Shown here piece after piece: positions 18,506 to 64,000 of a stretch of DNA of 64,000 nucleotides (its first letter is position 1; each line of letters begins with the position of its first letter). The notes below the pieces were generated by a model. That model did no database searches, was not told the DNA's origin, and was given only the letters and a program-made list of their open reading frames with translations. Both the position numbers and the translations under genes were made by a program. This DNA comes from Tomocerus qinae (lineage: Eukaryota; Arthropoda; Collembola; Entomobryomorpha; Tomoceridae): positions 37,510,001 to 37,574,000 of the forward strand of contig CM034546.1 in the NCBI GenBank assembly GCA_020055645.1, in the 5' to 3' direction.

Positions 18506-20446
18506 TCATCGCAATTTGATGCTTACGTCATCCGCCGGACAAACGCGATTTACTCCTCTAAAATCGACTGTTTTTAGTTTCCATATAAGATTATTGACGT
18601 GCATTTTAAAGATTATTCCACAGTGCCAAAACCATTCCAAAACAAGAGTGATGAATGCTCCAAGTAGAAAGTATCCACAAACGAAGAATATTGTATGGAT
18701 TTTCATTGACAGACTTATAGGCAATGCCTCAGATTTTTTATGCTTCAGTTTTGAATGTGATATTGTATCTTTTAAATCAGAAATGAAATCCCATTGTTGC
18801 TTGAAGTATTTTAGAAAACCTTTCTCTAGCATGATCTGAAAATATGATTGGAATTTATAACGGTAACAATCTACGAATGTATAAGACATCGGATCAGCAA
18901 GATCTGTTTCCTTTACAGTCATGCAAATTCCATCGGAAGATATTTTAGATGGTATTAAGGGTACAGTGTTTTGACTTTGCTTTGCATCATAAGTACTAAA
19001 TAGTTTCAAGGAGAAGTTGGTCAACATGATCCAAGAAAATGTTTCAAAGTTTATTTTCAAGTCTTCAGATGTTGCATCAGATTGCCAATCAAATCGGTAG
19101 ACACTTGAATTCACCTTATCCAGAATTTTATATTTTTCAAAAAATATGTCCTTCTGTTCGTTAATATTCCGCCGTATGTCTTTCTGCAACAACAATTTAT
19201 ATCCATTTTCCACGAGATCTTTAAAGTCCACAAAGTGTTTTCTGTCTGGAGGAGCAATAATCTCGCTTGTTATCCAAGTTTCATATAGATTAGCAATTAC
19301 AAATCCCATGGACACAATTACCAAATACAAAATGTTTCTCCTTTTATTTGAAACTCCCTGATTTAAAAGGACGGCTATTGTGGATACAAAAATAAACTCT
19401 AATTTCTTGTAGAAAGTAGAAATTCTAAAGCCTAAAACATAAAATGAAATCGGGAAAAGCGAAAATATCAGCCACCAGCAATAATCATCAAATGTATTTT
19501 GAATCAGAACTGACAAAGGGATGTCCTCGAATCGAGGGTTGGCTTCACAGTAAAATGGAATGTACTCTTGGAAGTATTCAATGAAAAGAGTTGCATACCA
19601 TTCCACAACAAAAGTATCCCTGTATGATCCCAACATCGAAATAGAACCACATCGACGATGATCTTTTTCTAGATTTTCATATCGCCTTGCATATATGGCA
19701 GTGAAGTTTAATCTTTCAGCCGTAAATTCAACAGCTTCCACTGAATTTTGACAAATACGATTTAAACTATTTGTTTTTACTACTGAATAAGAAGCCGAAT
19801 TACATTGTGGCATTTTTTTATAACTGTCGAACAAAAAGAAGCCAAATAGACCACCAATTTGAATGCCATGAAGATTTCCGTTTAAAGTATTCCAAATTCT
19901 GTCCCATTCTTCTTCCGAGTCTTTTGGTTTCATTGGATGAAGAATTACAGATTTATTATTCGGACTGTAGAGGATTGTAGTGTAAACCGAATATTTATTT
20001 CCAACTTGCATTGCCAATATAAACAGAGGAGCCACCAAACCTTTAACGAGGTTTGATCGCCACTTTGGGTTCATCCATTTGAATTCATCTTTTATGATGA
20101 TTATGAATCTCGAATCCGGACGATTTATTTCTTTTCCGAAAAGGAATTCTAAATATATTAAAGCAGGGTGTGGCTCCATTAGAATATTCACAGTGCAGAA
20201 ACTTGTAGAGAGATCCCGTGGATTATCTTCATGACGACCAAAGAGAGTTTTATTATAGTCCCAATTTGCTAACGTCCACGGTTGACTATTTTGGTTGGAC
20301 AGGATAAAATCTGTCTGCCATTCGGATTGATGGAAAGTAATCATGTTGAAATCACAATTACTATAGAACGACAAATTTCGAAAGCAGTTGATGTTGTTCA
20401 TCATTACAGAAATTACAATTGCTATAATTGGATAGATGGAATACAT
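18506..20446 (-). CDS. Divergent ionotropic receptor, tandem copy 2
   Basis: This 646-residue, single-exon IR-type receptor is closely similar to the gene at 12308-14284 over its whole length. The signal peptide is MYSIYPIIAIVISVMM. The conserved N-terminal motif CFRNLSFYSNCDFNMITF is shared with copy 1. TM1 begins near residue 322 (after DDYCWW), the pore/TM2-TM3 region is about residues 350-400, and TM4 is near 590-617. Differences cluster in short patches, for example the segment after the YKLLLQK motif and the C-terminus, which is shorter here. The gene is in tandem, same strand, about 4.2 kb from copy 1. It is full-length and without disruptions, so probably functional. Confidence 0.82.
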   Translation of the reverse strand: MYSIYPIIAIVISVMMNNINCFRNLSFYSNCDFNMITFHQSEWQTDFILSNQNSQPWTLANWDYNKTLFGRHEDNPRDLSTSFCTVNILMEPHPALIYLEFLFGKEINRPDSRFIIIIKDEFKWMNPKWRSNLVKGLVAPLFILAMQVGNKYSVYTTILYSPNNKSVILHPMKPKDSEEEWDRIWNTLNGNLHGIQIGGLFGFFLFDSYKKMPQCNSASYSVVKTNSLNRICQNSVEAVEFTAERLNFTAIYARRYENLEKDHRRCGSISMLGSYRDTFVVEWYATLFIEYFQEYIPFYCEANPRFEDIPLSVLIQNTFDDYCWWLIFSLFPISFYVLGFRISTFYKKLEFIFVSTIAVLLNQGVSNKRRNILYLVIVSMGFVIANLYETWITSEIIAPPDRKHFVDFKDLVENGYKLLLQKDIRRNINEQKDIFFEKYKILDKVNSSVYRFDWQSDATSEDLKINFETFSWIMLTNFSLKLFSTYDAKQSQNTVPLIPSKISSDGICMTVKETDLADPMSYTFVDCYRYKFQSYFQIMLEKGFLKYFKQQWDFISDLKDTISHSKLKHKKSEALPISLSMKIHTIFFVCGYFLLGAFITLVLEWFWHCGIIFKMHVNNLIWKLKTVDFRGVNRVCPADDVSIKLR

Positions 20447-21011
20447 TTTAACACGAATATTGGTAAGTTATGTCTTCCCTTGTTATATAACGATTGGAAT
20501 AAAGATAACGAATATCTAGCTTTAAATAACATATCGCACTAAATTTAATACACCTAACCAGTGAGTCCCCAACTTGGTAGCCAAGATTGGCAGTTAATAG
20601 CAAAATAGCAACCAGCGACTGTCAACTATTAAGTGTACCATATTATTCTAAATAGTTCCTACTACTATTTTTTCTTTCATATGAGGATCTCAAAGTTCAA
20701 AGTTAGTTTTATTACAGTGACAAAAAAGACATATTCAACTGCAAAATCAATTCACAATCAAAACTCAGCTAACATATTACTGCGGCTGCTCCTCCTCTAT
20801 GGTCACTATCCTAATACAATTTGAGTTAAAAACAATCAATATTTCTAGTAATATAACATATCCATTTCCCTTTCCAATATAATTTCATTTTTGACAAGAT
20901 CCATCAGTTTTCCATCAGTTAGTTTTCCATTAGTATCAAGATATCATCTACCATAGTCTGAACCGACTTCAGTCTGAAGTGAGACGTTCTATTGCTTGCA
21001 TTATATTCACA
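20447..21011. other. Upstream flank of IR copy 2
   Basis: Contains the block around 20590-20640 shared with IR copy 1 and presumably the promoter. No gene is seen. Confidence 0.45.
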
Positions 21012-26543: not shown

Positions 26544-26717
26544 CTAATACCAGTCACAATAGTAAACTCACAAGAAACCCAGACTAACTCAACTTCCATT
26601 ACATAAAAACCTTTGACTGGTAAATCATAACTTTTTCCGACTTCCTGTCTTTTGTAAAACACAATTTATTTTTCAACATCATATTGCTACCTAAAATCCA
26701 ATTGTTTTTAATACATA

Positions 26718-29339
26718 ATGTCCAATACTAACTCAAATAAGTTTAATAATTTCAAAACAATTATCTTATATCCCACTTTCATTTTGGTGATCATTTTAAG
26801 TTTACTTCCTTTAACATTTCTTTACTTTTGGAAATGTATTATAACCCTTTGGGTCAATATTTTCTATCATGATTTGACTCCAATGACATTTGTAGATTAT
26901 GCAACAGTCACCACATTAGATACTGAAATAGATAACACTAAATCAAATAGCTACAACAGTAATGGTGGGATTTATTATAAACTCAAAGGAAAAGTAAACG
27001 GCCGAGGATTTTTTAAAGCGTTTGAGGAAAAGGTAATACAGATTGACTATACTAAAGAGATTCCTCTGAATCATGAACATATACGTTTTCATCAAAGCAT
27101 TTCAAGATTTGGGGGCTACTGGTTTTTCAAAACTTTTAGAAATCAATTGAAATACGAAGATCATATGACTTGTATTACTTTGGGAGATAATATTTCCCAT
27201 GAAGAAGAAATCTGCAATTGGTTGAAAATTCGCTACGATATAAAGAAGTGTCCGTTGTGGGGACTTTTATTAATTTGCCGACGGGAGAGTGGCGACACGA
27301 TTTTTGCCCTCAAAATCCATCATGTACTTGCAGATGGTATTTCTGTAACACGAATTCATGATTTGCTTACTAACTCGCATATCAAATATCCGGTGCAAGA
27401 TGTCCATGAGACAAAGTGGCAAAGTGTAATCTATTCAATTTTATCAAACTTACGTTGCGTCCTGAAGTACTGAAATTACTAATTTAATTTTCGTTTGGTA
27501 CATGAAATTAAATCCGTATTGATGTGGAGGGCATCAGAGGTCAATGTCTCCCCTCCGAAATCAAAAACAGGAAATTGTTAACTTAAAATATCTAAAGTTT
27601 CACACGTCGTTTGACATTTAGGAAATTCAACGAAATGTGTCAACGAAAAGGGAATTAAGGGTTTTCAGTACTTAAGGCACGATTGATATATTTATTTAAT
27701 TAATTATTATTTTATCAACAATATTATTTAGTAAATTACTATTTCTTTGTTTAATATTTCATTGTATAGTTTAAGATTTTGATCAAGGCGGCTTTCAATT
27801 ATTTCGAGTACTTGACGGAAGCTATATTAACCGTAGAAAGTTCTCCAATACATCGACTGAAAGTGGAAGATGATCTTTTCTTAACACAAATATCCATTCC
27901 AGTTTCACTTATCAAAACCATTCGCCAAAAGACAAAAGTTCGATTTCAAGCGGTGATGCTTGATATAATTGTCAATTACATCAGTTCTGTATTTAACGAC
28001 AAAATTGATCGGGAAGTCATTCCGGACAAAATATGCACATGGACAAGCTTACCATGGCCTAATCACCCACGGAAGGGTCTCTGTAACCATTTGTACGTTT
28101 AGTATTTATTAGTAATAATTTGACTATCTAATAGTATTACCAATCCAACGAAAGTATTCCTCTGCTGATAAGAGGACACAATAGCTTTGTAGATAGTAGA
28201 TGGTCTCCTTTGTCCGTGCTCAGTCTAGCGCGAAATCCCTTTTGTTATCGTATCAACAGAAGAAAACTTTCGTTGGATTGATAATACGTACTTTGCGTTT
28301 AATGAAGAATTAGGAATGTGTGTAAATCTGAAGCATTCTAATATAACTTAGATAATAATATTATTATTATTTTAACATAATGAATTCTACTTAAAATTAC
28401 TTCCATGCATGGTTTCGAATACTTCTATTAAAAGTTGATCTGGTTAAATCTCACAATGCCTTCAGCTTATCTCAAGTTAGTTAGAGGTATATATTTGATA
28501 TTTGACCTACTATCAGAAAAAAGCTGCTTTTTCGAAGTAGTATTATACTTTGTTTTCTTATGATTTTTTGTAAAATTCCAGTACGGTGGCACCACTTACA
28601 TTTAACATAGAGAGCAAAAATAACCTTCGTCAAGAGATAACAGATATCAGTGAGATCTTTCAAGAGTTTCACGACAACTATTGCGACAGAGGAGCACATC
28701 ATTTCTTAAAGCCAATGTCGCTTTTACCAGTGAAGCTCATACAAGTGGCCCACAGAAGATTTTATGGAAAGTTAACTGCTGTATTTGGCCATCTAATGTG
28801 TTATGAAAAAAATTCAAAAATATTGGGAATAGAATACTGCGATCTTAACGGCTATTTGGTACCTGCTCAACAAAAATGTAAGGATCACTTTACTTTTCTT
28901 TAAAAGAACCAAAATGATAGAAAAATAAAAATATAAACTAAAATATCTACAATAAGGTATTGAACAAATACACTTTTGATGGACATCTACTGTGGGTAAA
29001 AAATTGTGTTTAGTCTATGCAGGGCCTAATAGTATAAACTCAACCTACGTTGAGGATTTTCTTTCGTTATGTATATCTGTACCTGGATTGATCATAGACA
29101 ATGTACACTGTAAATTTATTATTAATATTATTTTTGGCAGTTGTCAAATTGAATTTTTTGTTTTTATGTATACTGCAGTACTCTCTTTTATTGGTTTCAC
29201 CGTATCCAATGAAATTAAGATGACTATCCTTGGACCCAAATCATTATTTTCTTCGCAACGACAAGCGGATAAATTTTTAAAAGAAAATATTCAAAATTAT
29301 ATTGCTGAAATCTTTGAAAATGCCAATGTTTTTGATTAG
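26718..29339 (+). CDS. WSD-type O-acyltransferase (wax ester/DGAT family), gene 1
   Basis: Predicted membrane-bound acyl-CoA:alcohol/diacylglycerol acyltransferase of the bacterial-WS/DGAT and plant-WSD family. Exons are 26718-27425, 27770-28092, 28582-28877 and 29179-29339, with agreeing phases and 495 residues. The N-terminal transmembrane helix is around residues 10-40 (ILYPTFILVIILSLLPLTFLY). The catalytic HHxxxDG motif is HHVLADG at residues 201-207. The C-terminal half matches the WS/DGAT C-terminal domain, with a GYLVPAQQK segment and the typical FTVSNEIKMTILGP. It is the first of three tandem paralogues with identical exon boundaries. AATAAA follows at 29368-29373. Likely products are wax esters or storage lipids, possibly cuticular; the substrate cannot be read from sequence. 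A MITE lies in intron 2. Confidence 0.85.
28134..28287. mobile_element. Small inverted-repeat MITE in intron 2 of acyltransferase gene 1
   Basis: The terminal inverted repeat is about 22 bp (CAATCCAACGAAAGT with one mismatch in the outer flank GTATTAC/GTATTAT). Total length is about 154 bp. The target duplication was not resolved. Paralogues 2 and 3 lack it at the equivalent intron position. Confidence 0.65.
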
Positions 29340-31713: not shown

Positions 31714-31897
31714 CTAACGGTGCTGTTCAAAACTCTCAAGAAACCAAGACAATCTTAATTTCGCTTACATATCACACCTGAGGTTACCTTTGAATGAGGA
31801 ACTATACCTTTTTCAGACTTCCATTCTGTTTCAATTGTCAGAAATTTACTCCGCAACATTTTATTGCTCTTAAACGGCAATTGTTTTCTAACAAATA

Positions 31898-33848
31898 ATG
31901 TACAGTAATACAGTAACTGCGTTTACTCTTTTGAAAAAAATTCTCATTTACACGTGTTTTATTTTGACTATTATTTTGAGTTCACTTCCTTTAACTTTTC
32001 TATACATTTGGAAATCTATCGTCACCCAATGGGTCACGATTTTCCACCAAGATTTATCCCCGTTGACGTTTATTGATTATGTAACAATCACAGCATTGGA
32101 TCCTGAAATAGGTAATGCTAAATCGAACATCTTCAATTGTACTGGAGGAATTTATTGTAAACTCAAAGGAAAAGTAAACGGTCGAGAATTTTTCAGAGCG
32201 TTTGAGGAAAATGTAATACAAATTGATTACAGCAAAGAGATCCCTTGGAATCATGAACATATCCGTTTTCATCAAAGCATTTCAAGATTTGGGGGCTACT
32301 GGTTTTTCAAAACTTTTAGAAATCAATTGAAATACGAAGATCATGTGACTTGTATTACTTTGGGAGATAATATTTCCTATGAAGAAGAAATCTGCAATTG
32401 GTTGAAAATTCGTTACGATATAAAAAAGTGCCCGTTGTGGGGAATTTTATTAATTTACAGAAAAGAGAGCGATGATACAATTTTTACCCTTAAATTACAT
32501 CATGTACTTGCAGATGGTATAACTTGCACGCATATTGTTGAACTACTCACTAACACCCGTTCCAAATATCCAGTACAAGATAACCAGGAGACGAAGTGGG
32601 AAAGTGTAAGTCATTAAATTAAATTTCATTCTAATATATTTAATTCTAATTATAATTCTATTGAAAAGACGTTATTTTAAAGTATTAATTATGTGTATAA
32701 TTATTAGTTTAAGATTTTGAGCAGAGCGGCATTCAGATATTTTGAATATTTGACGGAAACCATATTAACCGTACCCTGTTCTCCAATACATCAATTGAAA
32801 GAGGGGGATGACTTATTTTTAACACAAGTATCCCTTCCACTGTCCCTTATTAAAAAAATTCGCCAAAATAAAAATGTTAGATTTCAAGCGGTGATGCTCG
32901 ATATAATTTTGAATTACATCAATACTGTTATTAACGGCGCAATTGATAAAGAAAACATTCCGGACAAAATATGTGCATGGGCCAGCTTGCCTTGGCCAAA
33001 TCATCCACAAAAGGAACTCTGCAATCATTTGTATGATAACATAAATTAATAACGGTTTTCTGCAAGGCGGTAGATTTTTCTGATAGTTTCTACTTTTGCT
33101 TGGAGGACACTATATTTTTTCTAACAGTTTTTTGTGAATTTTCAGTACGGCGGGGCAACTAGCATTGAAAATAGAGAACAAAAATAATCTTCGCCAAGAC
33201 AATATTACAGAGATCAACCAGATCTTTCAAGATTTTCATGACCAATATTGCGACAGAGCAGCATATCATTTCTTCAAACCAATGTCACTTTTACCAGTCA
33301 ATCTACTACAAGCCTTCAACAAAAGAGTCCAAGGAAAGATTACTGCTGTATTCGCACATCTAATGTGTTACGGGAAATATACAAAAGTCTTTGATATCGA
33401 ATGCTGCGATATTAACTGCTATTTGGTACCTGCTCAACAAAAATGTACAGTATTTCAAAATATACATTTTTTACAAATCGTAGATTTCTAGATTTCCTAC
33501 TCTATAACACCTTCTTCAAATTTTTATGTTTTTTATATAAAATTATTTTGGGGCTTATAGACGTTAGATACGCCATAAATCATTTTCAATCAGTAACCTA
33601 TAAGACTAATTAATTATAATTAAGTAATTATACCGTTAATGTAATGTAGTAGATAAAATAATTGCTGAATGTTTTGTATTTTTGCAGTACTGACTTTTGT
33701 TGGTTTCACCATATCAAATGAAATTAAGATGACAATCATTGGACCCAAATCATTATTTTCTTCGCAACAGCAAGCGGATCAATTTTTAAAAGAGAATATT
33801 CAAAATTATCTAGCTAAACTAACTGACAATGCCAATGTATTTGAATAA
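31898..33848 (+). CDS. WSD-type O-acyltransferase, gene 2
   Basis: Tandem paralogue of the gene at 26718. Exons are 31898-32605, 32708-33030, 33146-33444 and 33688-33848, giving 496 residues. Exon 1 is the same length as in genes 1 and 3 (708 bp). The catalytic HHVLADG is again at residues 201-207. The exon 1 segment FHQSISRFGGYWFFKTFRNQ is identical to gene 1, so the duplication is relatively recent or homogenised. The N-terminal membrane helix is around FILTIILSSLPLTFLYIW. The C-terminal WS/DGAT domain ends with FTISNEIKMTIIGP. Introns are shorter than in gene 1. AATAAA follows at 33872-33877. Predicted ER-membrane lipid acyltransferase; substrate unknown. Confidence 0.86.
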
Positions 33849-40613: not shown

Positions 40614-40774
40614 AAAAATTCAGCAAAGTGAACCTCACAAGAATATATGCAATACTTTGAGCACCAAGTAGCTGAATTTAATTCTGGGCTGCAAATAAGT
40701 TCTATCGTTTAAAAATAAAACAAAATATTACAAGAAGTAGAGTTAATTGATTTAAAATTGCATAATCAATTAAA

Positions 40775-43026
40775 ATGTTTAATTTTTGGGCAATTACGTT
40801 TCATTTATTGAAAAAAATTCTGGTATTGACCATTTTCAGTTTTACAGTTTTATTAAGCCCATTTTTCTTATTAGTTTTTTATATCTGGAAAATACTTGCG
40901 ACTTTCTGCGCTCTTATTTTTCACTCTGATTTATCGCCAATGAAGTATCTCGATTATATGACTGTAACTACAATGGATACTGATATAGACGATCCTAATT
41001 CAAAAAACTTTAATCCAAATATTGTACTTAATTTAAAACTCAACGGAAAAGTAGATGGCCCATCTTTTTTCAAACAGTTTGAGAAAAATGTAATACAAAT
41101 TGATTATAGCAAAGAGATTCCTTCCAATCACAAACACATTCGTTTTCATCAAAGTATTTTCAGATTTTGGGGCTACTGGTTTTTTAAAACTTTTCCAAGC
41201 AAATTGAAATACGAAGATCATGTCAAATGTACCACTCTAAAAGACAATATTTCATATGAAGAAGAAATCTGCGGATGGCTGAAAAATCGCTACGATATTA
41301 AAAAGTGTCCATTGTGGGGAATTTTATTACTTTACCGAAAAGAAAGTGACGACACCATCTTTTCTTTTAAAATTCATCATCTACTGGCAGACGGCTACAG
41401 TGTGCTTCATATTCTTGATTTATTGACCAATACACAACGTAAATACCCAGTAAAAGAATTCCAAGATATTAAATGGAAAACTGTACGCTCGCTATTTATC
41501 TGTAAAATATTTTCAATTAATTTACCAATGTTTTATTTTCATATTTAATTTTTAATATTTTTCAGTTTAAAATATTGACAAAAGCAGCTTTTGGTTATTT
41601 CGGATACCTTCTGGAAACAATTATGTCAGTATCTGAATCTCCCCTGTATAAAGGAGAAAATGAAGATGGATTGTTTATAACACAAGTGACCGTTCCACTT
41701 CCGCTCGTTAAAGATATTCGCCATAAAACCAAAGTTCGATTTCAAGCGGTGATGCTCGATCTAGTTTTGAATTATATAAATTGTCTTATTAATGAGACAG
41801 CAACTGACAAGAAAGAGATTCCAGATAAGATATGTATATTCACAAGTTTGCCATGGCCTAATCATCCCCAGGATGAACTGTGCAATCATTTGTAAGACTA
41901 AACGCCACGTAATTACCGTAAAATCTGTAAAAATCTGACCCTGCTTTTATTAGAGGCGTTTGTGACAATTTTTTGAAAATAGTTTTAAAATTTAAAACAT
42001 TTTATCTATTGAGCAGAACAATTATTTTGGATGAAAAATTCTAAATATAAGAAATGCTATCTATCAATCTGTTATCAATATTGACTGGTCACTTTACTAA
42101 AACACAACCAACCCAAGCTGCATGTACCAATAAATATTTTAACCTCTGCGGTGTCCAACTGCAGGGCCGCAGCGAGAGGGGGCCCGCCCCCCCCGAAATC
42201 GAAGAAAAGAAAGGAATTTTTACCTTAAAACCCAAAATTTTTATATATTATTTGTCGGGCAAACTGTCTTTTGTTTAAGACCCGGAAGGCGTTTGTTTGC
42301 ATACCCAGTGCTTAGCTAATCGTAACTGACTTCCCCCCAACGTTTATTACAGATTTTACGGTGTTCCTAAACACTTCCAATTTATATGTAAACATAATTT
42401 TGTTAGCTTTAGTATTTCGATTTAGTATTTCGTGCAATTTTGTTTTTATTTAATTTCAGTACAAATGCGCCGCTAGCATTTGAGATAAAAAACAAGAACA
42501 ACCCTAAAAAAGAAAGTATACAAGAAGTCAACAAGATTTTTCAAGATTTTGAGGATAAACATTACGACAGAGCAGTATATCATTTCGTAAAGCCAATAGC
42601 ATTGTTACCAAAGAAGCTAATATATTTCATTCAAAGAAAACTTCGTGGCAAGATATGCTTGACGTACGCACATTTAATTTGCTCTGAAAAATATTCCCAA
42701 GTATTTGGCATTGAATGTAGCAATGTTAGCGGATTTTTGGTACCTTACCAACAGAAAGGTACGAAATATTCCATAATTTTTTTGTATATAATATACTATT
42801 TGTACGATAGGATTGATCAATTATAAGACGACAATATTTTTCTGTTACAGCCGTCTCTGTTTTGGGCTTCAGTATATCAAACGAAATTAAGTTGACAATT
42901 GTTGGACCCAAATCTTTATTTACTTCACAGGAACATGCGAATAAATTTTTACAAGACAATCTTCAAAATCATATTGCTAAGCAGTTTTGCGTTTTATCCG
43001 AACGAATGTTTAACTGTCTAGGATGA
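40775..43026 (+). CDS. WSD-type O-acyltransferase, gene 3, with MITE-derived C-terminus
   Basis: Third paralogue. Exons are 40775-41482, 41566-41891, 42460-42758 and 42851-43026, giving 502 residues. Exon 1 is 708 bp as in the others, with catalytic HHLLADG at residues 201-207. It is more divergent than genes 1 and 2 are from each other. Intron 2 is longer, with a G/C-rich element fragment. The last exon reads through the conserved FSISNEIKLTIVGP and then into a MITE (42982-43143). This replaces the expected end (paralogues: IAEIF.. or LAKLT..) with 14 residues encoded by the transposon before a TGA. The ancestral end is visible just past the MITE. The catalytic domain is intact, so the enzyme may still work. 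Confidence 0.84.
42162..42300. mobile_element. Possible truncated MITE in intron 2 of acyltransferase gene 3
   Basis: A hAT-like left end (CAGGGCCGCAGCGAGAGGGG) runs into a CCCGCCCCCC tract and then AAATCGAAGAAAAGAAAGG. This resembles the general layout of the CACGTATCC family but not its sequence. I found no matching right end or duplication. Confidence 0.3.
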
Positions 43027-43598: not shown

Positions 43599-45477
43599 TT
43601 GATTGAACCAAGTCGTATTTAGTTACCAAACTTACTGTTTCCAAACCAAATATTTACGTTATGGCATGGTACAAACATTAATTCTGTTTTTGGAAATTTT
43701 GAATTTTATATTACTGTTATAAAGAAAACTCTAGTGTTTTTCTATTTTCAAAATAAAGTTTATAAAATGTAATTTTCTGTGAAAGTGATATTTATTACCT
43801 CGAGCTAACTCTGTATTGGTACTTGTAACTGTCGCAACTGTAAAAATGGATATCATTCAAAATTGTACAATAGAATGCATTTTCAGATTCAAAATACACG
43901 AAAATATTTCAGCTTAAATTCATATATTCAATCTGTGGTAAAAACAATTGCAATTGCATTCCTTCATTCAATCGTATAAGTTAACATTAAAAATACTTGA
44001 AGGACATGCAAATTTGACATAAAATCTGTCAAGATAGGATGTTTTATCCCATGTGGCAATGCAAAATGGTCATTTACAATGTTACATGTAGGAGTAGCTT
44101 ACAGGTTTATGACGTTTGGTATCACCTGGCATTTATTGCTATTTAGTCATTAGTAAAGTAATTCCCATTTATTACCTATACGTGGAACTGTCAATGTTAA
44201 GAACATATCTGTATTTACTTCCGTACAAATGTAGGAAATGGATTCTAGGTAATGCATTCATATTTCTTATCAGCTATTAGAACTGTCACTTCGAATGAAT
44301 AGACATTAGAGTTAGTGCGAAATAAAATGTGAACAATCTCATAAACATTTTAATGGCAAAACAATGACTAATAATGACTGACATTCCTACTACTATCCTA
44401 CTCTTGACTTTTATATAGTGAGATAACATACACAATCAGCAAACTTATCACGGTCAGACACATTATCACAAGAAATTACTTGTTTACAATTCATGGGTTG
44501 AAATAATTTTATATTTGTTGGTGTTCTAAGTAGGAAGGATTAGTCAATGTATCAATATGAACCTAAAGCAATTCTCTACTTTTTTGATACCAAAACACAA
44601 TACAGTAAAAGTAAAGGTCGGTGTTAAGGTTAATACAGACAATAACTTAATATTAATAACTTTTAGATTATTTTGACAAAACATTTGTTGAAACGACGCG
44701 GACGTAACGCTGAGAAAGATAAGACTTTATTATACCTGGATTAAGCATGGGATAGTTAGACCTGGGTTAGGATACATGTCCTAATCAGCTATGGCATACT
44801 CAGTCTTCGTAAATCTCGTGAAACATGGCAACCCAGTGCCTGTACAAAGCCATAAAGGATAGTGAGTTATAGTATGTACTAATGATTTTTTTGGATTGTT
44901 TTTATTATTGTGATGGGTTGCCTGCTGATTTTCTCTTGAGTGCTATGTTCGTCCCTTTGCTGGTTTCACTAGTCAAAATTGAATCATGGAAACGATTCCG
45001 TTATCACATCACATGTAAGTTTTATTTGCATAAAACTTAAAATTATGTACTTTTATGTTATTAGATGATGAGAAAAGCTTTAACCCTAAAATAGATAGGC
45101 GAAAAAGACAACGTTAAAAGGTGAGGACTGATGCGGGGATGATAATTCCATGCATGGAGAACCAATAGAAGTGAACGTTTATGCATATATAGGACAACTC
45201 TATTGCACTGTGTGTACAATACATGTGTTGGCGCGGGCGTTAAAAATCCCAGTACTTTTCCACTGCTCCTCAATCTTAACAATGTAATCTCCCATTTACA
45301 TTTTTCAAATCGACTTTTGAAGCATACACTAACGACAGAGAGAATTCGTATATACACCATTGCAATCCTCACATTCGAATTGACAATATGTGTCAGTTAT
45401 AGACACCGGCATGGCCCGTGGCTTAAGTTGTAGCTAATTTAATTTTGCATATTTTTCGTTAATGCGACCCTGGTAAG
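43599..45477. other. Intergenic sequence, no gene recognised
   Basis: AT-rich. I searched upstream of the RAG1-like fragment for the N-terminal half of a transposase and did not see one. Confidence 0.45.
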
Positions 45478-46428
45478 GTGTTAAGTGTTATTTTAAAAAC
45501 ACCCTCCAGTTTATCTTGCCCCCTTTGTAAATCTAAACCACCAGATTATAATGTTCTTGAAAACTTCAAAAATGGTAAATTTTTGCCATCCCCTGAGACG
45601 GTGCAATATGGAATGAGTCCACTTCACGCATGGATTCGTTGTTTTGAATTTTGTCTTCATTTGGCATACAAACTTGAGATAAAACAGTGGAGCTGTAACA
45701 AAAGTGAATACGCGGGTCGCAAACAACATATCCAAAGTGAGTTGTTTAAAGAATTGGGATTAAAAGTAGATTACCCCATCCCAGGGGGCAGTGGTAATTC
45801 AAATGATGGAAATACCGCCCGCCGTGCATTTGAAGAATATGAAAAATTTGCTAATATTCTGGGTCTTGAGTTACGACTAGTGAAAGATTTGAGAACATTA
45901 TTGGTGACATTATCTGTTCATCGACCAATTAATGCTGACAGATTTGATGAATTTTGCAAATCACTGCTTCATTACTACGTTAATGATTCGGGTTATAACT
46001 GGTACTATCTTCCTGTTACTCTTCACAAAATACTTGTGCACGGCCGTGACATAATTAAAAACAGTGTCCTTCCACTGGGTGTGATGGGAGAAGATGCTGG
46101 AGAAGCCAGAAACAAATATTATAGAAAATATAGGCTTTCAAATGCCCGAAAGACAAGCAGACGTGACAATATGATGGATGTGTTTTGTAGAGCCTTAGAT
46201 ACCTCGGATCCTTTTGTATCCTCCATCTATTTACCACAACGCATGGCCATTCGAAAACATAAAGAGATTCCGGAAGAAGTGCTTTTTTTGTTGGATATGC
46301 CGAATAATGCCAGAACTTTATTTCCAAACGAAACAGAAGACCAAGAAAATGAAGACATTGAAATTTTTGAATTAGATGACTTGCAATTATCATGCGAAGA
46401 TGAAGAACTTTCCCTGCCAGCTTCATAG
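45478..46428 (+). pseudogene. RAG1/Transib-like transposase, C-terminal fragment
   Basis: An open frame of about 316 codons without an initiating ATG at its start, so it is 5'-truncated or an exon after the acceptor-like ..TAAG at 45477. By eye it matches the C-terminal core of RAG1 and related transposases. It has a CPLC pair (RAG1 has CTLC), a helical segment PLHAWIRCFEFCLHLAYKLEI, and NDGNTARRAF (RAG1 has GNFARKLM). LHKILVHGRDII follows, matching RAG1's two zinc-ligand histidines in HKTLAHVPEII. Then a GEDAGEARNK segment aligns with the region of RAG1's catalytic glutamate, ending in YRLSNARKTSR. The position that should hold the second catalytic aspartate (RAG1 LHCD) reads LHAW, so catalytic activity is doubtful. 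The tail is acidic. The N-terminal RNase-H half is absent nearby. It could alternatively be a host gene domesticated from such an element. Confidence 0.65.
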
Positions 46429-48359: not shown

Positions 48360-51300
48360 ATGCCGTCTGTCGAAGGAAAAATTAAAAGTAATTTGGTAGG
48401 CTTAAGTCAAAATTTGACTAATACCAATAAAGTTTTGTTATACCTTGTTCAAAATGGCATTCTTTCTCTCGAAGAAATGGATACAATCGTAAGTATTCTT
48501 TTACATTTTTTATCTTTGTTATTGGTTTAGTGATTTAATTTCTCTCACTTAGAAACGGAAAGACCAATTTGATGGAAATTCAGATATTTTTCTCTGCCTC
48601 ATAAAAAAGGATGTCGATTGGGAATCTTTAAAAAGCATTTTTTTGTCCACTGAAAATGAACACCTTGTTAAATTGGTTCAACCAAATGACTCTTCGCGTG
48701 ACGGTAAATTACTTTTAAAATGTTAAAAAAACTATTAAAATGTCAGAAAAAAATAAAAAAATCAAAACATGATCTAAATAGGCAGGTAATCTAATTGACG
48801 TAAGCAATCTCAAAAGTAACATTATTTTTATGACGTGGTAGTTTTCATTTTGTATTTTTAAGACGCAATATAAGCTATAAAAACTGCATAATACTAAACG
48901 TTTTTGAATCGAACATACAAATGTATGTTAAATAAATACGGAATGAATTGTATGTAGGCTATATACATAAGTCCTTATCTCCGTATATCACTACGTTGTA
49001 GCTTTATACATTCCATAATAATAATAATGTAGGTACTACGCTTTACTGCTTTCCATTTCACAATACTTATACACGATTTAAGTTCAAAATTAAGTTCATT
49101 GGCCTTTAGTTCATTATATCACGTAGTGGAACTGGAATTCAGCTCCGGACAACTTGCTTTTAAATATAGTTGATGCCAGCATAATAGACAACCTCGTATT
49201 TTCTTCACTTTCTACTTTAATTACATAACTAATATAAATAATTGACCTGTAAATATGAGTTGAATGATTTTTTGAAAAATTGCCAATTGTTTTATACTGC
49301 GTCAAAATATGAGTTCATTGAAATGTATTTAAAAATGCATGCACATACAAATTGTTGTCTTTTTCAAAAAACATGAAAATTGCTGTTTGAATCAAACTGC
49401 TTGAAATTATTTTATAATATTTACTATCTATAAGTACTAAGCGGAAATGAGGGAGGCAAGGATTTAATACTGGAATTCCGTTTGAACTCCTTGTACAGTG
49501 AAAACGTGTAACACCATTCTATGAAGCTAATTTAATAAAAGTTAAAGTGGAATAACTGTTAACACTAATTTCAGATACCGAAAACTTGAAACTTGATCTG
49601 ACAATGGTAGGGTCACAAAAGTTACGACTGGGGGATTTTGACAGATATGAAGTAATTGGTGCCGGAGAATTTGGTGCTGTGATGAAAGCAAGGCTTAAGA
49701 AAAACAAAACATATTACGCAATTAAAATTACGTAATAAAGCATTAATTTATTAAATCATTCAATCATTTATTTATTAAAGTACTATTTCAACTTTAACTA
49801 TTTCCAAATAAATGATTTCTTTTTATTGCCTAATTTAGCCGTGAAAATTCCTACCGTGAGATAAACTCACTTTTACGATCTGAACATCAACATATAATCA
49901 AGTTTGAAAATGCGTGGAGAGAAACCATCACAGATGAGTCAGTAGAACTCAATTCTCAATTTGAAGATTACGTAGGACTTCCCATACACTGTATTCAAAT
50001 GGAACTTTGTAATGGACGGAATTTATCTGCATGGATTTTGAAACTACCTCAACAAAAGACAGTAGAGGATGCTAAGCAAATTTGTTATCAGATTTCATTA
50101 GGAGTTCAAAGCTTACACTCTAAAAACATCATTCATAGAGATCTAAAACCAGCGAATATACTTTTACTACATTGCTATCGAAAAGGGGATGAAAATGTTA
50201 TTGTCAAAATTGGAGATCTGGGATTGTCTAAGCAAACTTACATGCAATCAAAAGCAAGCAGAAAAAGTCTGATGACGAATTGCGGAACAGAACATTATAA
50301 AAGTCCCGAGCAGGTTTAAATATTCTTATTTCTATCTCGTTTAAAATAAAAAGCCCGTAGTAGTATCTACTTACCTCTGACTTGACGTCGTTCTAACATA
50401 CATTTGTTGTTGTTTTAAAGGAAACGGAACGAGACTATGATGTATTGACTGATATATTTTCAATGGGAATTATTTTCTTCGAAATTCTGTACTCAATGGT
50501 TGAAAAGAAAGAAATCATTAATATTGTTAATACCAGAAAAGGTTTGCTTCCAAACAACTTCAACCTCGAATTTCATTCCGAGGTGATTATTATTATTATT
50601 AACTTATCCATGCAACTTTTAAAGTAAAAACGATTTACGGAGATCAAGATTATAAGTTGTAATAATAATATGCCTATATTAAACTTATAGGAAAAACTAA
50701 TCAAATCCATGTTGTCGCAAAACCCTAAAGACAGGCCTAATTCAAATTCTGTGACTAAACAGTTGAATAATTTGTGGTACACAGCAGGTGAGATATGTTA
50801 TACACGTCATTTTGATATTCATCTTTTTCTAAAACTGAAAATAACTTCAAATTAACGAAAAATGTATCAATTTAGATTTTAATACTAAATGAACTTTGTA
50901 AAAACATTTGGTTTGTAGCTGATACACCGTTAATTAGTACTATATCATTGATTTACAGGTACAATAAACCCTGAACCAAACATTGATAATGAAAAGACTG
51001 ATGCCGTTAGTACTCCTACTCCAAACGATATTGAAGATTGCCGTTCGACATGTTTGGACTGTTGCAATTTAGATTCCAATGAATCTTCTGAAGAAATCGA
51101 CACATCAGAGAATGAAACATTAGAAGACGATGCATTCATAGAAAATGGCAACGATGAGCAATGGAATCCATTGGCGAGATACACTAGCACAGAAAGTGTT
51201 TATCATTTAAGGATTTATTTACGTGGTGTACCTCATAGTAAGGATCAATTGAATCAATTAGCTGAAATCCTACAACACAACCCTGTAGTTATAAAAGTAG

Positions 51301-52670
51301 CCTGCTTAACTTTACAAAAACGCAGATGTGATATAAAGGCGTATCTAGATAGATACTCTAACTTAGGAAAGCATGAGTTAATTCATAAAGGTGATTTGCT
51401 ACTAATTAAATACCCGCCCGAATTCTTTTGGGAAGTCCTTGAAGCATTAGAAGCCTTGTCGGTGCCAAGCTACAATGCAGAATGTAAAGAGGGTCAGATT
51501 GTATTGAAAATTAGTAACAACGTTGGGCTTAACGAGTTGAAAATTCAATTCCATAACTTGCAACAGTTAGATAGCTTAACATTTAAAGACATTGACATTC
51601 CAAAAAATGTTGGCAATGTAGATATAGAAAATCCCTATAACGACATATCAACACATAATACTGGATTCAGGGTAAAAAACATTCCTTGCTCAGCGGAAGA
51701 AATTACTCTAACAAACTGTACTGTAGTTAGCCAGGAAAAAATCAGTCCACGAATTTTAAACTTGGACAACATAAAAGTATTTGATAATGGGGAAGACCTT
51801 ACAAACTTTGATTTGAGTGTTCTTGTTGATTTTGAACAACTTAAAAAATTACACGTAGATGACAGTTTGGGAAAAACCAAAATGTCAGTGGACTTGGGTA
51901 AAATGGACAAACTAGATAGTCTTGCTTTAAATTGTTCAAAAATACTTAATTGGACTGAGTCAACTGCAAACATTAACAAACTTATTTTGAAAAACTTCAA
52001 TTTAGACGAAAAAACACAAATGACTGTTAGAGAACTTTATTTGTTCTCGCATGTTGATCCTTTGTGTATTCCTTCATCAGTCGAAAAGTTATTTCTTGAG
52101 AATTGCACTTTAAGCTGTACAAAGGACAGCGGCAAAGCCGAATTACGGAATCTAAAAAGCCTTGCTATTACGTCAAATGAAATTGAAACTTTTATTGATT
52201 GCACTAAATGTCCAAATTTGGAAACGCTCGTTGTCTCGACAAACCCCTCTTGCAGGAACATGATACTTAAACAAAACTTTTTAAAGTTTCTCAAGTCTTC
52301 CAAGAAAGTCGACAAAGTTAGGTTAAATAACATTCCAGTGAATTTCTTAGGCATACACAAGCTACACAAGTTAGTTCTCCATTCATATACTTCTGCTAAA
52401 ATGTATTCCATTCTAAAGCATTTTTCTGCTGAAAATCTTGTCCTTCGTTTTAAGTACCCCATCAAGTCCCAAGAAGTAGACAAAGTTCTGCAATTGTTCC
52501 AAAATTTTAATAAACGCAAAACAATTGCTATTGGGGAGTTTAACTTGAAAGACGAAGAGTTTTCAGAATCCAATCTTAAATTGTATGCTGAACGAAATGC
52601 CCGATTCTATTTGTTTGAGAATAATGTAGGAACACCTCTCAACGAAGAGCAATTTGAGACTTATTTGTAA
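48360..52670 (+). CDS. CARD-like / eIF2-alpha-kinase-like / LRR-like protein
   Basis: Seven exons with consistent phases (48360-48488, 48553-48703, 49575-49731, 49839-50313, 50421-50582, 50691-50787, 50959-52670) encode 960 residues. Residues 1-93 form a helical CARD/death-fold-like domain (VLLYLVQNGILSLEEMDTI, then a KKDVDWESLKSIF helix pair). Residues about 112-388 are a protein kinase: glycine loop GAGEFGAV (122-129), K144 in YYAIK, HRD at 245-247, DLG in place of DFG at 272-274, and GTEHYKSPEQ. FENAWRE, IQMELC and SPEQ are signatures of the eIF2-alpha kinase family, with only a short kinase insert. An acidic linker (about 391-450) leads to a 500-residue region of LRR-like repeats (ELRNLKSLAI, PNLETLVV, VEKLFLENC). 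No transmembrane segment is seen, so it is probably cytosolic. Expected activity is stress- or pathogen-triggered phosphorylation, perhaps of eIF2-alpha; that is inference. Confidence 0.8.
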
Positions 52671-53624
52671 ATTATAATATTCTTGGCTGGCCTTTGCATT
52701 AGTAACTGGCTTAATAGCCAACAGGTATTGAGAGAAATATTGAATTCATTGTCCCTACCCTCTGTTAATTGAGAATGTTTCCAATGATATCTTTCAAATA
52801 GAAAATGAGACAAAGCAAAGGTCAAGAGAATAGGATTCGAAAATGCACGTAAAGCAAAATACGTCAAAAACGTATACCCACGTGTATGCCAAAAATGTCC
52901 CACTCCACTTTTCCTTAGTCAAGTAGACTAGCCAGTTAGTTGGAACGGAACTTAGAAAACTTAGAGGCGACCGATTAAACTTATACTTAGTTCAATGCTC
53001 AGAGAATAATGAAAAAACTTTAACTGTTGTAAATAATTGTGCATACTGAAGATTAATGTCTAGTCTAAGATTATAAGTTACAGTTTTTAATTCGACGAAC
53101 GCAGAATAACTTTAAAAGTTGTATGGCCAAATAGTTAATTTTCCAAAGAAATAAAGCCTAACTAGAGAAAGAATTAAAAAAAAGTACTGCATTGTTTACA
53201 AGAATCGAACGGTATTGAATTGAGTGTGCGGTCAATTACGACATAAACGTTTCCTAAATTTTTAATGTTTAATACTACCTCTATTATGTATACCTTCGAC
53301 TATATGTATTACACATACGTGGAATGTATTATCGCAAGAATAAAGGAAATTTTTTTTTATTTGTTTAGCTTGAAGTAATCTTACAATTATCTACCGAATA
53401 TTAACTTCATAATGCATTTTGCTCCTTAAACTTTATTTTCTAATGACCCAATTTATATTTATTTTCCAAGAATTCATAACTGAAGTTCTGCATTTTATAA
53501 TCCGGAATACCGGTTATTACCGGGTATCAAATGGACAAAGTTTGTTTGGTAAATTGCTGGCATTGATTTTATCTTCAGTACTATCGATGTGTTGGTAGCA
53601 GCAAGATTTTTATTCCTAGGAATA
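52671..53624. other. Intergenic sequence between the CARD-kinase gene and an IR gene
   Basis: No gene is recognised. It presumably holds the IR promoter. Confidence 0.4.
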
Positions 53625-55610
53625 ATGTATCCATTAGTGTTTTGCCGTTCACTTCTTCCATTTGAGATATATTTATTGTTTCTCGCGATTAACACAGGGG
53701 ACACTCATATGCTAAAACATCTTGAAATATTATTACAATTGAATTTAAAAGATTTTAGTAATCTTAATATCTCTCCTCCGGATATTACTAATCAGAAGGA
53801 TCAATGTCTGGAATACCAAGGGAAAGTTATTCCTTATAATGAATTTATTTCTTACGTCCTGAATATTTTCCATGTGAACTATAAAATTCCAACAACTGTA
53901 CAAAATGTGATTTCATTTTCTAAAGGTTCAACAATTCATAAACACTTTGGAAATATTGTAAATTGGCACATTGCTGAAATATCTGCAGTGAATATCAAAA
54001 GTATAAATGAGCACTTCAAGATTCCCGGGATATCATTTATTTTTATTGTTTTGCCAAATATATTGCCTACAGACATCTTAAAGCCATTCAGATTGAATAC
54101 GAGAAGATCAACTTCGTATTTAGTGACTTATGACACTGTTTATAAAATGTGCTATTTTTGTGCTGATTTTGGAAATTCATTCTGGTTGGTATTAAAATCT
54201 TATGCCATCCTTCCCAGTCATCGACGTTCGATAAATTATCATAGGGCGCCATTTACTGCCATTTCGGACGCTTCAATTACAACAAAGAAATTATTGGAAA
54301 TGGATCCATTTCCTGTTGCATATACCAAATTGAGCTCCGACCCAACTGCTCCATTTCCACCTCCTCTAAACTTTTTATTGAGACAATTAGTGGATTCCTA
54401 CAATTTATCAGTAAATGTCTTTACAATAGGCACTAACCCTGGTGAGGTACACTATTACGTGCTTATCACTACATATTTAAAATTTATAAGAAGTATGACG
54501 AAATATTACCATGTCTCCACTACTGGAATTAGCTGGGATCTAGCGTTTGTTTCAAATAGTGGAAAATATATACACCAAGAACAAGGATTAGGAATTGTAT
54601 TTGAACCTTTGGGGGAATGGACAGCTTTGACAATTATACCTTCGGTGATGATTGTTGTGCTAATATTTTTGATATTTTCTATTTATGAAGTTGGATATAA
54701 AAATACTCATTTTAGACCATATTTTGGAGCTATAATGCGCCCTCTTCTTGACCAGGCACAAGAAAATAAATTGCCGTCAAATAAAGCATCATTTCGAATT
54801 GTTTTCACAATGTGGCTATTCTACTGTCTTTTGATCTCTGAATGTTATCGTGGAACACTAACAAGTTTTCTCATGGCACAATTACCAACACAGAATCTGA
54901 AAACATTTATCGATTTAGTAGAAAACAATAAATCTGTATTTACAATTCCCAAATTACCGTATTCAGAGACAAATGAAATTGCATCTGTCACTGAAGAAGC
55001 ATTTTCTGAGGAGATTTCTTATCGAAACAACACCGCTTTCAATGATTTACAAATAAAACTTCAAAATCCATCTGCTTGGGTAAGTGGAAACGGTAAACAC
55101 ATTTCAAATGGAGACAATGAGGAAATCTGGCTGGAAATCTACCAACGAATTGTTTCCAACAATGAAGTGTTCCTTGGGGTAAAAACGATGGTTGAATTGG
55201 CTGGTTCGTTAATGGAGAAATTTATTTCGAGGGACGCTTACGTTTTGTCTTCCGAAACTATAAAGCGAGACCAAATGCTCATGCTGTCAAGAGATCCGTA
55301 CCCAGAAGTAATGGGGATATTTGAACAATTTCCAAGCGCAGGAATTACATGGAAGATAGCCGACGTGTATTTGTACTACCGTGAGACTAGGGCAATTGAC
55401 TCACTAACATCTAACAAGCAAAATAAAGATAAAGTTCTGGATATCGTTTCAAAAACAACGATTGGAAATGGACCCCGTTCAATGGCATTTAAAAATATCA
55501 GAGCTCCTCTAATTTGGTTGCTGATTGGAATGGCTATTTCGTTTCCTGTGTTCATTATTGAAAGATTAGTACCTATAGTAACCAGTCAACCCGCATGTAA
55601 TCTAATCTAA
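53625..55610 (+). CDS. Ionotropic receptor (iGluR-like), second type
   Basis: Single-exon gene, 661 residues from the ATG at 53625-53627; the frame extends 12 codons upstream without an ATG. The N-terminal hydrophobic stretch (FEIYLLFLAIN) may be a signal peptide. A long extracellular region precedes TM1 (around WTALTIIPSVMIVVLIFLIFSI). The pore/TM2 segment includes FRPYFGAIMRPLLDQ. TM3 ends in SECYRGTLTSFLMAQ, where YRGTLTSFL corresponds to the conserved SYTANLxxFL of glutamate-receptor channels. The S2 part of the ligand-binding domain follows, and TM4 is around IWLLIGMAISFPVFII. It is only distantly related to the tandem pair at 12-20 kb and closer to canonical IRs in TM3. It lies between the CARD-kinase gene and a decayed CARD/IR region. 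Confidence 0.8.
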   Translation: MYPLVFCRSLLPFEIYLLFLAINTGDTHMLKHLEILLQLNLKDFSNLNISPPDITNQKDQCLEYQGKVIPYNEFISYVLNIFHVNYKIPTTVQNVISFSKGSTIHKHFGNIVNWHIAEISAVNIKSINEHFKIPGISFIFIVLPNILPTDILKPFRLNTRRSTSYLVTYDTVYKMCYFCADFGNSFWLVLKSYAILPSHRRSINYHRAPFTAISDASITTKKLLEMDPFPVAYTKLSSDPTAPFPPPLNFLLRQLVDSYNLSVNVFTIGTNPGEVHYYVLITTYLKFIRSMTKYYHVSTTGISWDLAFVSNSGKYIHQEQGLGIVFEPLGEWTALTIIPSVMIVVLIFLIFSIYEVGYKNTHFRPYFGAIMRPLLDQAQENKLPSNKASFRIVFTMWLFYCLLISECYRGTLTSFLMAQLPTQNLKTFIDLVENNKSVFTIPKLPYSETNEIASVTEEAFSEEISYRNNTAFNDLQIKLQNPSAWVSGNGKHISNGDNEEIWLEIYQRIVSNNEVFLGVKTMVELAGSLMEKFISRDAYVLSSETIKRDQMLMLSRDPYPEVMGIFEQFPSAGITWKIADVYLYYRETRAIDSLTSNKQNKDKVLDIVSKTTIGNGPRSMAFKNIRAPLIWLLIGMAISFPVFIIERLVPIVTSQPACNLI

Positions 55611-62859: not shown

Positions 62860-63504
62860 TCACTTCATAATGTAAAAATTTTGTTGTAATTTCCATATTA
62901 CTTTTTACATTAATCATAAATATTATAAATTTTCTATTGCTTTGGATATTTTAGTTCCTATGTTAATAATTCTCATTTCTATGTTTTTAAGGCTCACAGT
63001 AATTTACTTGCGAATAGAAATTAACGGAGCAAGACGGAAATATTGGGTAATGCTTGTACGCAGTAACTCCGCTCAACATCCAAATTATTCAAACCAGACA
63101 GAAATCGATAATCACTATTTGTTTTGTTTCAATTTATCTTTGCTCGTACTAGTTTTATTCGTATATTCCAGGCTTCGACTACTTCCCAGTAGCCTCACAC
63201 ACGAACATTACAATAAGTGAGACTACATCACTCGATAAAAGAATTACAACAGTTAACTCTTTGGTTTGGACTTAATTTGTGCGCAAATTATTTTCCAAAG
63301 GGGCCTTGACATGGAATAGAAATGTTGTTATACTACTATGAACCAGAGCCCCTTTAACGTCAATTGTGTTAATTTCACACGATATAAATGGATCGGCAGA
63401 ATCACATTTGCGTTTTGTTACATATTGTGCTTGTGTAAAACATGCTTCAGTTGAAAATAAGATAAACAATTGGCCATTTGTGTGAAAATACTTTCCAATA
63501 AAAT
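62860..63504 (+). repeat. Duplicated IR 5' region, copy B (intact)
   Basis: Unbroken counterpart of 58780-62140, leading directly into the IR gene at 63505. Promoter elements are presumably here, but no clear TATA box was found. Confidence 0.65.
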
Positions 63505-64000
63505 ATGCATTTGAAAATATGTTTATATTATTACGCTGCGTTAACCATTTTGAAATTTGGAAGATACGTAAATTGCATTCGAAATTTGTCTTCGTTCAAC
63601 AACTGCGATTTCAACTTGATTCGATTTCCAAATTCTAAATGGCTTGAATTGTTCTTGGAGAGAAATCAGAATGGTCAACCTTGGACAATCGCCACGTCGG
63701 AAAATAAAACTTTCAAAGAAGTTGACAAAATGACATTTAAGGATTTGTCGAAAAGTCTTTGCAGTGTGAATATCATTGCTGAACACGATAAAACATTTTG
63801 GAGTGTAGATCAATATTTTGGCCAAAAAGTTTCTCGTCCGAATTTCACAATTCTGTTCCTTTATGACGGGGGACCTGAAAATGTTTATACTAGGTGGCTT
63901 TTGAAACCCATTCAACAGCCAGCGGCAGACATTTACTACATCTTCATAGCAAACGAGTCTACATTCTCAATTTTTACAATATGCATTTATTGTAAAACGC
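63505..64000 (+). CDS. Divergent ionotropic receptor, N-terminal part (runs off window)
   Basis: Open from an ATG at 63505-63507 to the window end. A hydrophobic leader (KICLYYYAALTILKF) is followed by CIRNLSSFNNCDFNLIRF, clearly matching CFRNLSFYSNCDFNMITF of the tandem IRs. NQNGQPWTIA, DLSKSLCSVNII and FGQKVSRP are other shared blocks. It belongs to the 12-20 kb IR type but on the plus strand and more divergent. An ATG a little downstream could also serve as start. No disruption is seen within the window. Confidence 0.75.
   Translation, partial: MHLKICLYYYAALTILKFGRYVNCIRNLSSFNNCDFNLIRFPNSKWLELFLERNQNGQPWTIATSENKTFKEVDKMTFKDLSKSLCSVNIIAEHDKTFWSVDQYFGQKVSRPNFTILFLYDGGPENVYTRWLLKPIQQPAADIYYIFIANESTFSIFTICIYCKT

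Follow-up and report, generated by a model that had tools for sequence, protein, structure and literature searches.

RIPK2 joins a kinase to a CARD and acts downstream of CARD-bearing NLRs. We describe here a gene of the springtail Tomocerus qinae whose single product carries a CARD-like domain, a kinase resembling those of eIF2-alpha and an LRR-like region, in that order. It lies on the forward strand of contig CM034546.1 (C1), within positions 37510001-37574000, a stretch of 64,000 nucleotides that was analysed as a whole and is called the window below; the assembly (GCA_020055645.1) comprises 334.4 Mb in 115 contigs. Unlike the window protein, RIPK2 belongs to another kinase family, bears its CARD at the C-terminus and has no LRR. 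PKR and PERK are closer with regard to the kinase, being its best matches at 116 bits each, and they share with it the motifs IQME/IQMQ-[FL]C and GTxxYxSPEQ as well as the position of the activating threonine. By contrast, the window protein has a CARD and an LRR region and no RNA-binding or lumenal sensor, DLG in place of DFG, and a shorter alpha-G helix with glutamate at the position of the docking threonine; no double-stranded-RNA-binding domain appeared in the Pfam scan at E <= 10. The N-terminal CARD is common to NOD1/NLRC4-type NLRs and to APAF-1, and the C-terminal LRR is placed as in NLRs, whereas the window protein, unlike all of these, has neither NACHT nor NB-ARC among the seven Pfam families matched at E <= 10. 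A true NLR was therefore rejected: with no NTPase found by Pfam, the protein is a kinase flanked by the two ends that an NLR-type receptor has. Judged by its domains, the protein is thus a member of neither the NLRs nor PKR proper.

According to a 2016 comparison, PKR is confined to vertebrates and invertebrates have two eIF2-alpha kinases (PMC5025754). Among the novel immune domain combinations of amphioxus, none with a kinase is given in 12 of 16 places of the source (PMC2575513). No paper describing the order CARD-kinase-LRR was found by title or abstract start in the open-access full-text literature, which leaves subscription journals outside its scope, and no paper there brings NB-ARC together with springtails. 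This agrees with an earlier note, made from the letters of this DNA, whose author knew of no described protein with this order of domains. None of the parts is new by itself, whereas their combination, and the setting in which it occurs, has no precedent within the literature searched.

Gene model and homology of the three domains

The gene spans 48360-52670 (+), and its seven exons (2883 nucleotides) encode 960 residues without an internal stop; all six introns are GT-AG, with consistent phases (Table 1). The seven exons with matching phases and one continuous product that the earlier note had read were indeed recovered by this splice model. The gene model is real, intact and unusual, and is no artefact. 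No second copy of the gene lies inside the 64-kb window.

The N-terminal domain was compared with death-fold models and with known structures. Residues 1-93, taken alone, match the Pfam model PF00619 at 25.4 bits (E 1.4e-5; cut-off 23.9), over residues 8-48 only. Relatives score 28.3 bits (the paralogue L009, described below), 29.9 bits (the NB-ARC gene L010) and 51.4 bits (L033, the best, E 1.1e-13), and all six members of alignment A3 match the model at E <= 0.01. Among the 32 PDB matches of a three-member CARD profile at E <= 10, one is the ribosomal protein uL29, and the other 31 we take to be CARD proteins. The six-member profile gave 38 matches at E <= 1. CARD or CARD-template proteins account for 33 of them, with CARD8 (6.1e-7), APAF-1 (4e-5) and MDA5 (4.8e-5) at the top and cIAP1 (3.3e-4) and the NOD1 CARD also present; outside this group the profile hit a designed protein, two Cdc24 chains, uL29 and lipovitellin (five matches). 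A phase-0 intron after isoleucine, with the donor GTAAGT, splits the CARD in the window gene, in L009, in both L032 genes and in L033, and because of this split a Pfam CARD scan of the whole genome finds 3 places only. The CARD-like N-terminus proposed in the earlier note is thus upheld by the model match on residues 1-93 and by the PDB profile of the relatives.

The kinase domain matches PF00069 with E 6.1e-40. Compared with the PDB, it scores 116.4 bits with PKR, 116.3 with PERK, 87.1 with GCN2 and 76.9 with HRI, the next family being ULK1 (74.4). The signatures FENAWRE, IQMELC and GTEHYKSPEQ were located at residues 168, 198 and 295, and the catalytic residues K144, D247, N252, D272 (of DLG) and T296 are kept; T296 aligns with the threonine of GT in the PKR motif GTLRYMSPEQ, which is the position of the PKR activating threonine. 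In line with the earlier description of eIF2-alpha-kinase signatures and a full set of core catalytic residues, with DLG for DFG, the kinase can be classed from these matches as eIF2-alpha-kinase-like.

The C-terminal region was approached through its own family. A search of the genome with exon 7 gave 524 candidates, and the best 77, which were scored, all match; apart from the gene itself these are L009 (50%) and 75 further places with 25-32%. A 23-sequence profile of this family found 59 PDB matches at E <= 1, of which 56 are LRR proteins (best osteomodulin, 4.7e-6; decorin, 8.7e-5; FLRT3, 1.2e-4), the other three being ribosomal L4; one family member, L013, passes the cut-off of the Pfam model LRR_8 (31 against 27 bits). 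LRR motifs number 20 in residues 570-900, where 13.7 are expected, a count reached by 3% of shuffles; for residues 570-960 the observed count is reached by 6.5% of shuffles, and residues 460-570 show no excess over shuffles. For residues 464-629, the two longest partial matches beyond L009 are L022 and L028, each at 26%. The LRR-like C-terminus named in the earlier note therefore stands on the family profile, which finds LRR structures, and not on the Pfam check of the protein alone, discussed below. Taken together, the gene model, the domain homology and the paralogue L009 bear out the order CARD, kinase, LRR.

Table 1. Exons of the CARD-kinase-LRR gene and parts of exon 7, in window positions
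Feature	Position	Strand	Content
Exon 1	48360..48488	+	Residues 1-43; start codon, N-terminal half of CARD; PF00619 25.4 bits on residues 1-93
Exon 2	48553..48703	+	Residues 44-94; second half of CARD; CARD alignments A2 and A3
Exon 3	49575..49731	+	Residues 94-146; start of kinase N-lobe, glycine loop GAGEFGAV, K144
Exon 4	49839..50313	+	Residues 146-304; kinase core: HRD (D247), N252, DLG (D272), activation-segment T296, SPEQ
Exon 5	50421..50582	+	Residues 305-358; kinase C-lobe including alpha-G region YSMVEKKEIINIVNTRKG
Exon 6	50691..50787	+	Residues 359-391; end of kinase C-lobe
Exon 7, whole	50959..52670	+	Stop codon 52668-52670
Exon 7, start	50959..51176	+	Residues 391-463; linker, acidic and of low complexity (sequence)
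Exon 7, middle	51177..51674	+	Residues 464-629; kept in paralogue L009 (49.8% across exon 7)
Exon 7, end	51675..52667	+	Residues 630-960; LRR region also present in NB-ARC and F-box-type proteins encoded in this genome

Relatives in the same genome

Genes with the same two ends are numerous in this genome. L010 and L011 each carry a two-exon CARD followed by NB-ARC, a stretch resembling the FxSxx_TPR model and an LRR region homologous to exon 7. NB-ARC (cut-off 23.5) scores 46.0 bits on a 400-residue part of L010 and 43.1 bits on L011, is not listed in an hmmscan of the full L010 frame, and reaches 21.9 bits, below the cut-off, on a fragment of L008; the FxSxx_TPR model gives 115.6 bits (L010) and 119 bits (L011), both under its cut-off of 300. 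A phmmer search of the PDB with the single L010 protein was unproductive. The three-sequence CARD profile also detects CARDs outside its training set, in L011, both L032 kinases and L033. At least 126 NB-ARC places (253 candidates) are present, mostly on C1, all scored ones being above the Pfam cut-off, and many of them have frames of about 1000 residues with a CARD exon upstream and an LRR region downstream. The neighbourhoods were counted on C1, with 116 of the 126 NB-ARC, 66 of the 77 LRR and 142 of the 151 CARD matches. Of the 116 NB-ARC places, 48 are preceded on their own strand, at a distance of no more than 1.2 kb, by the second of the two CARD exons; 26 have an LRR region downstream and 22 have both; after shifting the places by 50 kb either way these neighbours fell to 0 and 0, and by 200 kb to 0 and 1. 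Sequence comparison thus shows that each end of the window gene has its homologue in a large family of CARD-NB-ARC-LRR genes of this genome, and this bears out the NLR-shaped layout that the earlier note had inferred. With L010 and L011 the window gene has in common the CARD, an intron placed alike and the homologous C-terminal LRR; it differs in that they carry an NB-ARC NTPase and a winged-helix/TPR-like stretch and no kinase.

The same type of LRR region has other owners. Seventeen loci (L012-L028) encode single-exon proteins of about 480-525 residues with F-box-like N-termini and an LRR region like that of exon 7. Eleven of them match an F-box or F-box-like model at E <= 0.05, two (L012, L024) above the cut-off, and in Pfam at this threshold no such match was obtained for L017, L018, L022, L023, L025 and L026. 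The three-sequence CARD profile found nothing better than E 1.8 in these 17 loci, and the F-box-type relatives were therefore rejected as a source of both ends. In an iqtree2 tree of 23 LRR sequences the kinase, NB-ARC and F-box-type proteins form separate groups, with support of 100 for the NB-ARC group, 100 for the kinase pair against the rest and 57 for the F-box-type group.

The closest relative, L009, lies about 19 kb downstream and has CARD, kinase and LRR in the order of the window gene, at 56% identity. Over 858 codons (Nei-Gojobori proportions), synonymous differences amount to a saturated pS of 0.75 and nonsynonymous ones to a pN of 0.26 (ratio 0.35), and the ratio per exon of 0.20-0.59 indicates coding constraint across all seven exons. 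Since synonymous change is saturated, the protein has been kept for a long time. L009 is the only other gene with this order found among the candidates scored, which were the best 77 out of 524 in the LRR search and the best 150 out of 185 in the CARD search, so that absences in this genome carry little weight. A further copy of the terminal part of the LRR exon follows just beyond the end of the L009 gene (L009:8567-8710).

Other kinases of this type have different ends. The second exon of the CARD lies 0.1-2.4 kb upstream in 8 of 13 places with close kinases (66-75%); among the CARD-bearing ones an LRR region was seen with L009 only, and none was found in L049 and L050. The kinases of L029-L031, L049 and L050 are 60-70% identical to that of the window gene, with exon boundaries at matching places. 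No CARD was found in L029-L031, where the N-terminal frame differs: a common frame of 350-450 residues precedes the kinase (L029:880-2247; L030:4838-5884 (-); L031:877-1977), and in L029 it ends in coiled-coil-like repeats. A PHR-like C-terminal exon (PPIYLKGVGFVGRPS) was observed behind the kinases of L029 (5096-5395), L030 (2663-2956 (-)) and L049 (4959-5255); it scores 16.9 bits (L029) and 20.8 bits (L030) against a cut-off of 23.6, and in L049 it looks similar and has no Pfam match. L033 (2276-4485), which starts 2.3 kb beyond the end of the window, between the window gene and L009, has a CARD and a kinase whose frame is interrupted near the activation segment, and no LRR match was obtained in it. 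A neighbourhood of about 30 kb thus combines the layouts CARD-kinase-LRR and CARD-kinase with, on the opposite strand, a CARD exon and an NB-ARC-type LRR. In such a mixed setting an exchange of ends is easy to imagine, and the window gene may have arisen in this way.

Possible working and rival explanations

Given the gene model, the relationships of the three domains, a paralogue built in the same order and the ends shared with CARD-NB-ARC-LRR genes, we tentatively propose, giving it slightly less than an even chance, that the window gene encodes a cytosolic PKR-like receptor kinase, in which the LRR senses, the CARD gathers and the kinase autophosphorylates and phosphorylates eIF2-alpha. The LRR region would bind or monitor a ligand or partner, and the CARD would enter CARD assemblies whose nucleus is formed by CARD-NB-ARC-LRR proteins or by proteins like itself. 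Close packing may then lead to autophosphorylation of the kinase, with T296 at the place of the PKR activating threonine, and the active kinase would phosphorylate its substrate, most likely eIF2-alpha, and so slow translation. These steps would amount to a PKR-like working in which the RNA-binding sensor would be replaced by an NLR-type sensor and a docking piece. An output through eIF2-alpha is plausible. It is also conceivable, and we hold this as a possibility well short of an expectation, that the gene is a counterpart of PKR which an invertebrate evolved on its own: an eIF2-alpha-type kinase would have replaced the NTPase between an NLR-type CARD and LRR, with translational arrest as its output and CARD-CARD wiring to a very large CARD-NB-ARC-LRR repertoire. 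If true, this would reveal a separate path by which sensing inside the cell leads to the control of translation, and would allow NLR-type sensing and a kinase read-out to be studied in one and the same molecule. With at least 126 NB-ARC places, the surrounding genome also deserves attention in its own right with regard to animal immunity.

Several results weigh against the PKR-like proposal. The PF00619 match falls to 20.9 bits, below the cut-off, when all 960 residues are scanned, and a single-sequence phmmer search of the PDB with the CARD gave nothing real (one match, E 0.28). For the C-terminus, Pfam on the protein alone gives LRR_8 only, with E 0.01-0.02 and below the cut-off, and phmmer with that single region found no LRR structure in the PDB. 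In L009 a stop stands just before the CARD frame, and no in-frame ATG is present; lacking a start, this paralogue may be decaying or misassembled. In a small FastTree of 16 kinase cores, PKR groups with PERK (0.937) apart from the clade of the window kinase, which joins L029-L031 (0.843) and then L009 (0.994); of the eIF2-alpha kinases this tree covers PKR and PERK, and its deeper nodes are weak (0.25-0.40) and do not fix the position of the branch. The chief reason for caution is the altered alpha-G helix, which is one residue shorter and has a glutamate where PKR and PERK have the docking threonine; their following alpha-G glutamate aligns only through a one-residue gap. We take Thr487 and Glu490 of PKR to be its eIF2-alpha docking residues. 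In L009, L029 and L030 the helix is short by one more residue, and in L031 it is not.

That the docking threonine is not kept speaks for the main rival, a RIPK2-like output kinase recruited through its CARD to CARD-NB-ARC-LRR receptors, which would act on substrates other than eIF2-alpha in inflammatory or cell-death signalling. The CARD upstream of 8 of the 13 close kinases, a layout like that of RIPK2 in reverse order, and the large family of CARD receptors in the same genome also fit this explanation, and sequence cannot separate it from the PKR-like one. We consider it somewhat less likely than the PKR-like one; against it stand the lead of PKR and PERK over ULK1 by about 42 bits and the retention of IQMELC and GTxxYxSPEQ. 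The LRR region could also be a generic protein-binding solenoid through which an eIF2-alpha-type kinase is directed in a common stress response outside immunity, in line with the occurrence of this LRR type behind F-box-like N-termini (11 of 17 loci, two above the cut-off); the pairing of CARD with LRR, which is common to the NB-ARC genes and not to the F-box-type ones (CARD E 1.8 at best), makes this improbable.

Two further explanations were weighed. Domain shuffling in a fast-changing gene cluster might have left a relic, or a gene that is not transcribed; in favour of this, L009 has no in-frame start for its CARD and the kinase frame of L033 is interrupted. As the reading frame of the window copy has no interruption and all seven exons show constraint, we give this explanation a small probability. 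A mistaken fusion of two genes, with foreign CARD exons or a foreign LRR exon, could be suspected from the length of intron 2 (871 bases). This is very improbable and we count it as rejected, since L009 has matching order and spacing and CARD exons also precede kinase exons in L032 (twice), L033, L049 and L050.

Other frames in the window

Ionotropic-receptor-like frames were noted at 12308-14428 (-), 18506-20467 (-), 53553-55610 (+) and 63502-63999 (+). The first of them has no Pfam match, and the third passes as a ligand-gated channel (32.1 bits, cut-off 30.8). Three similar acyltransferase-like frames lie at 26712-27473, 31892-32617 and 40766-41548 (+); the first, the one of the three that was scanned, matches WS_DGAT and the condensation domain, below cut-off. 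An open frame at 45463-46425 (+) matches a RAG1 recombinase model with E 0.0072, below cut-off, and is possibly a transposon remnant. A hAT-type transposase at 6738-8750 (+) is contained in two frames, the second of which passes the hAT dimerisation model with 56 bits.

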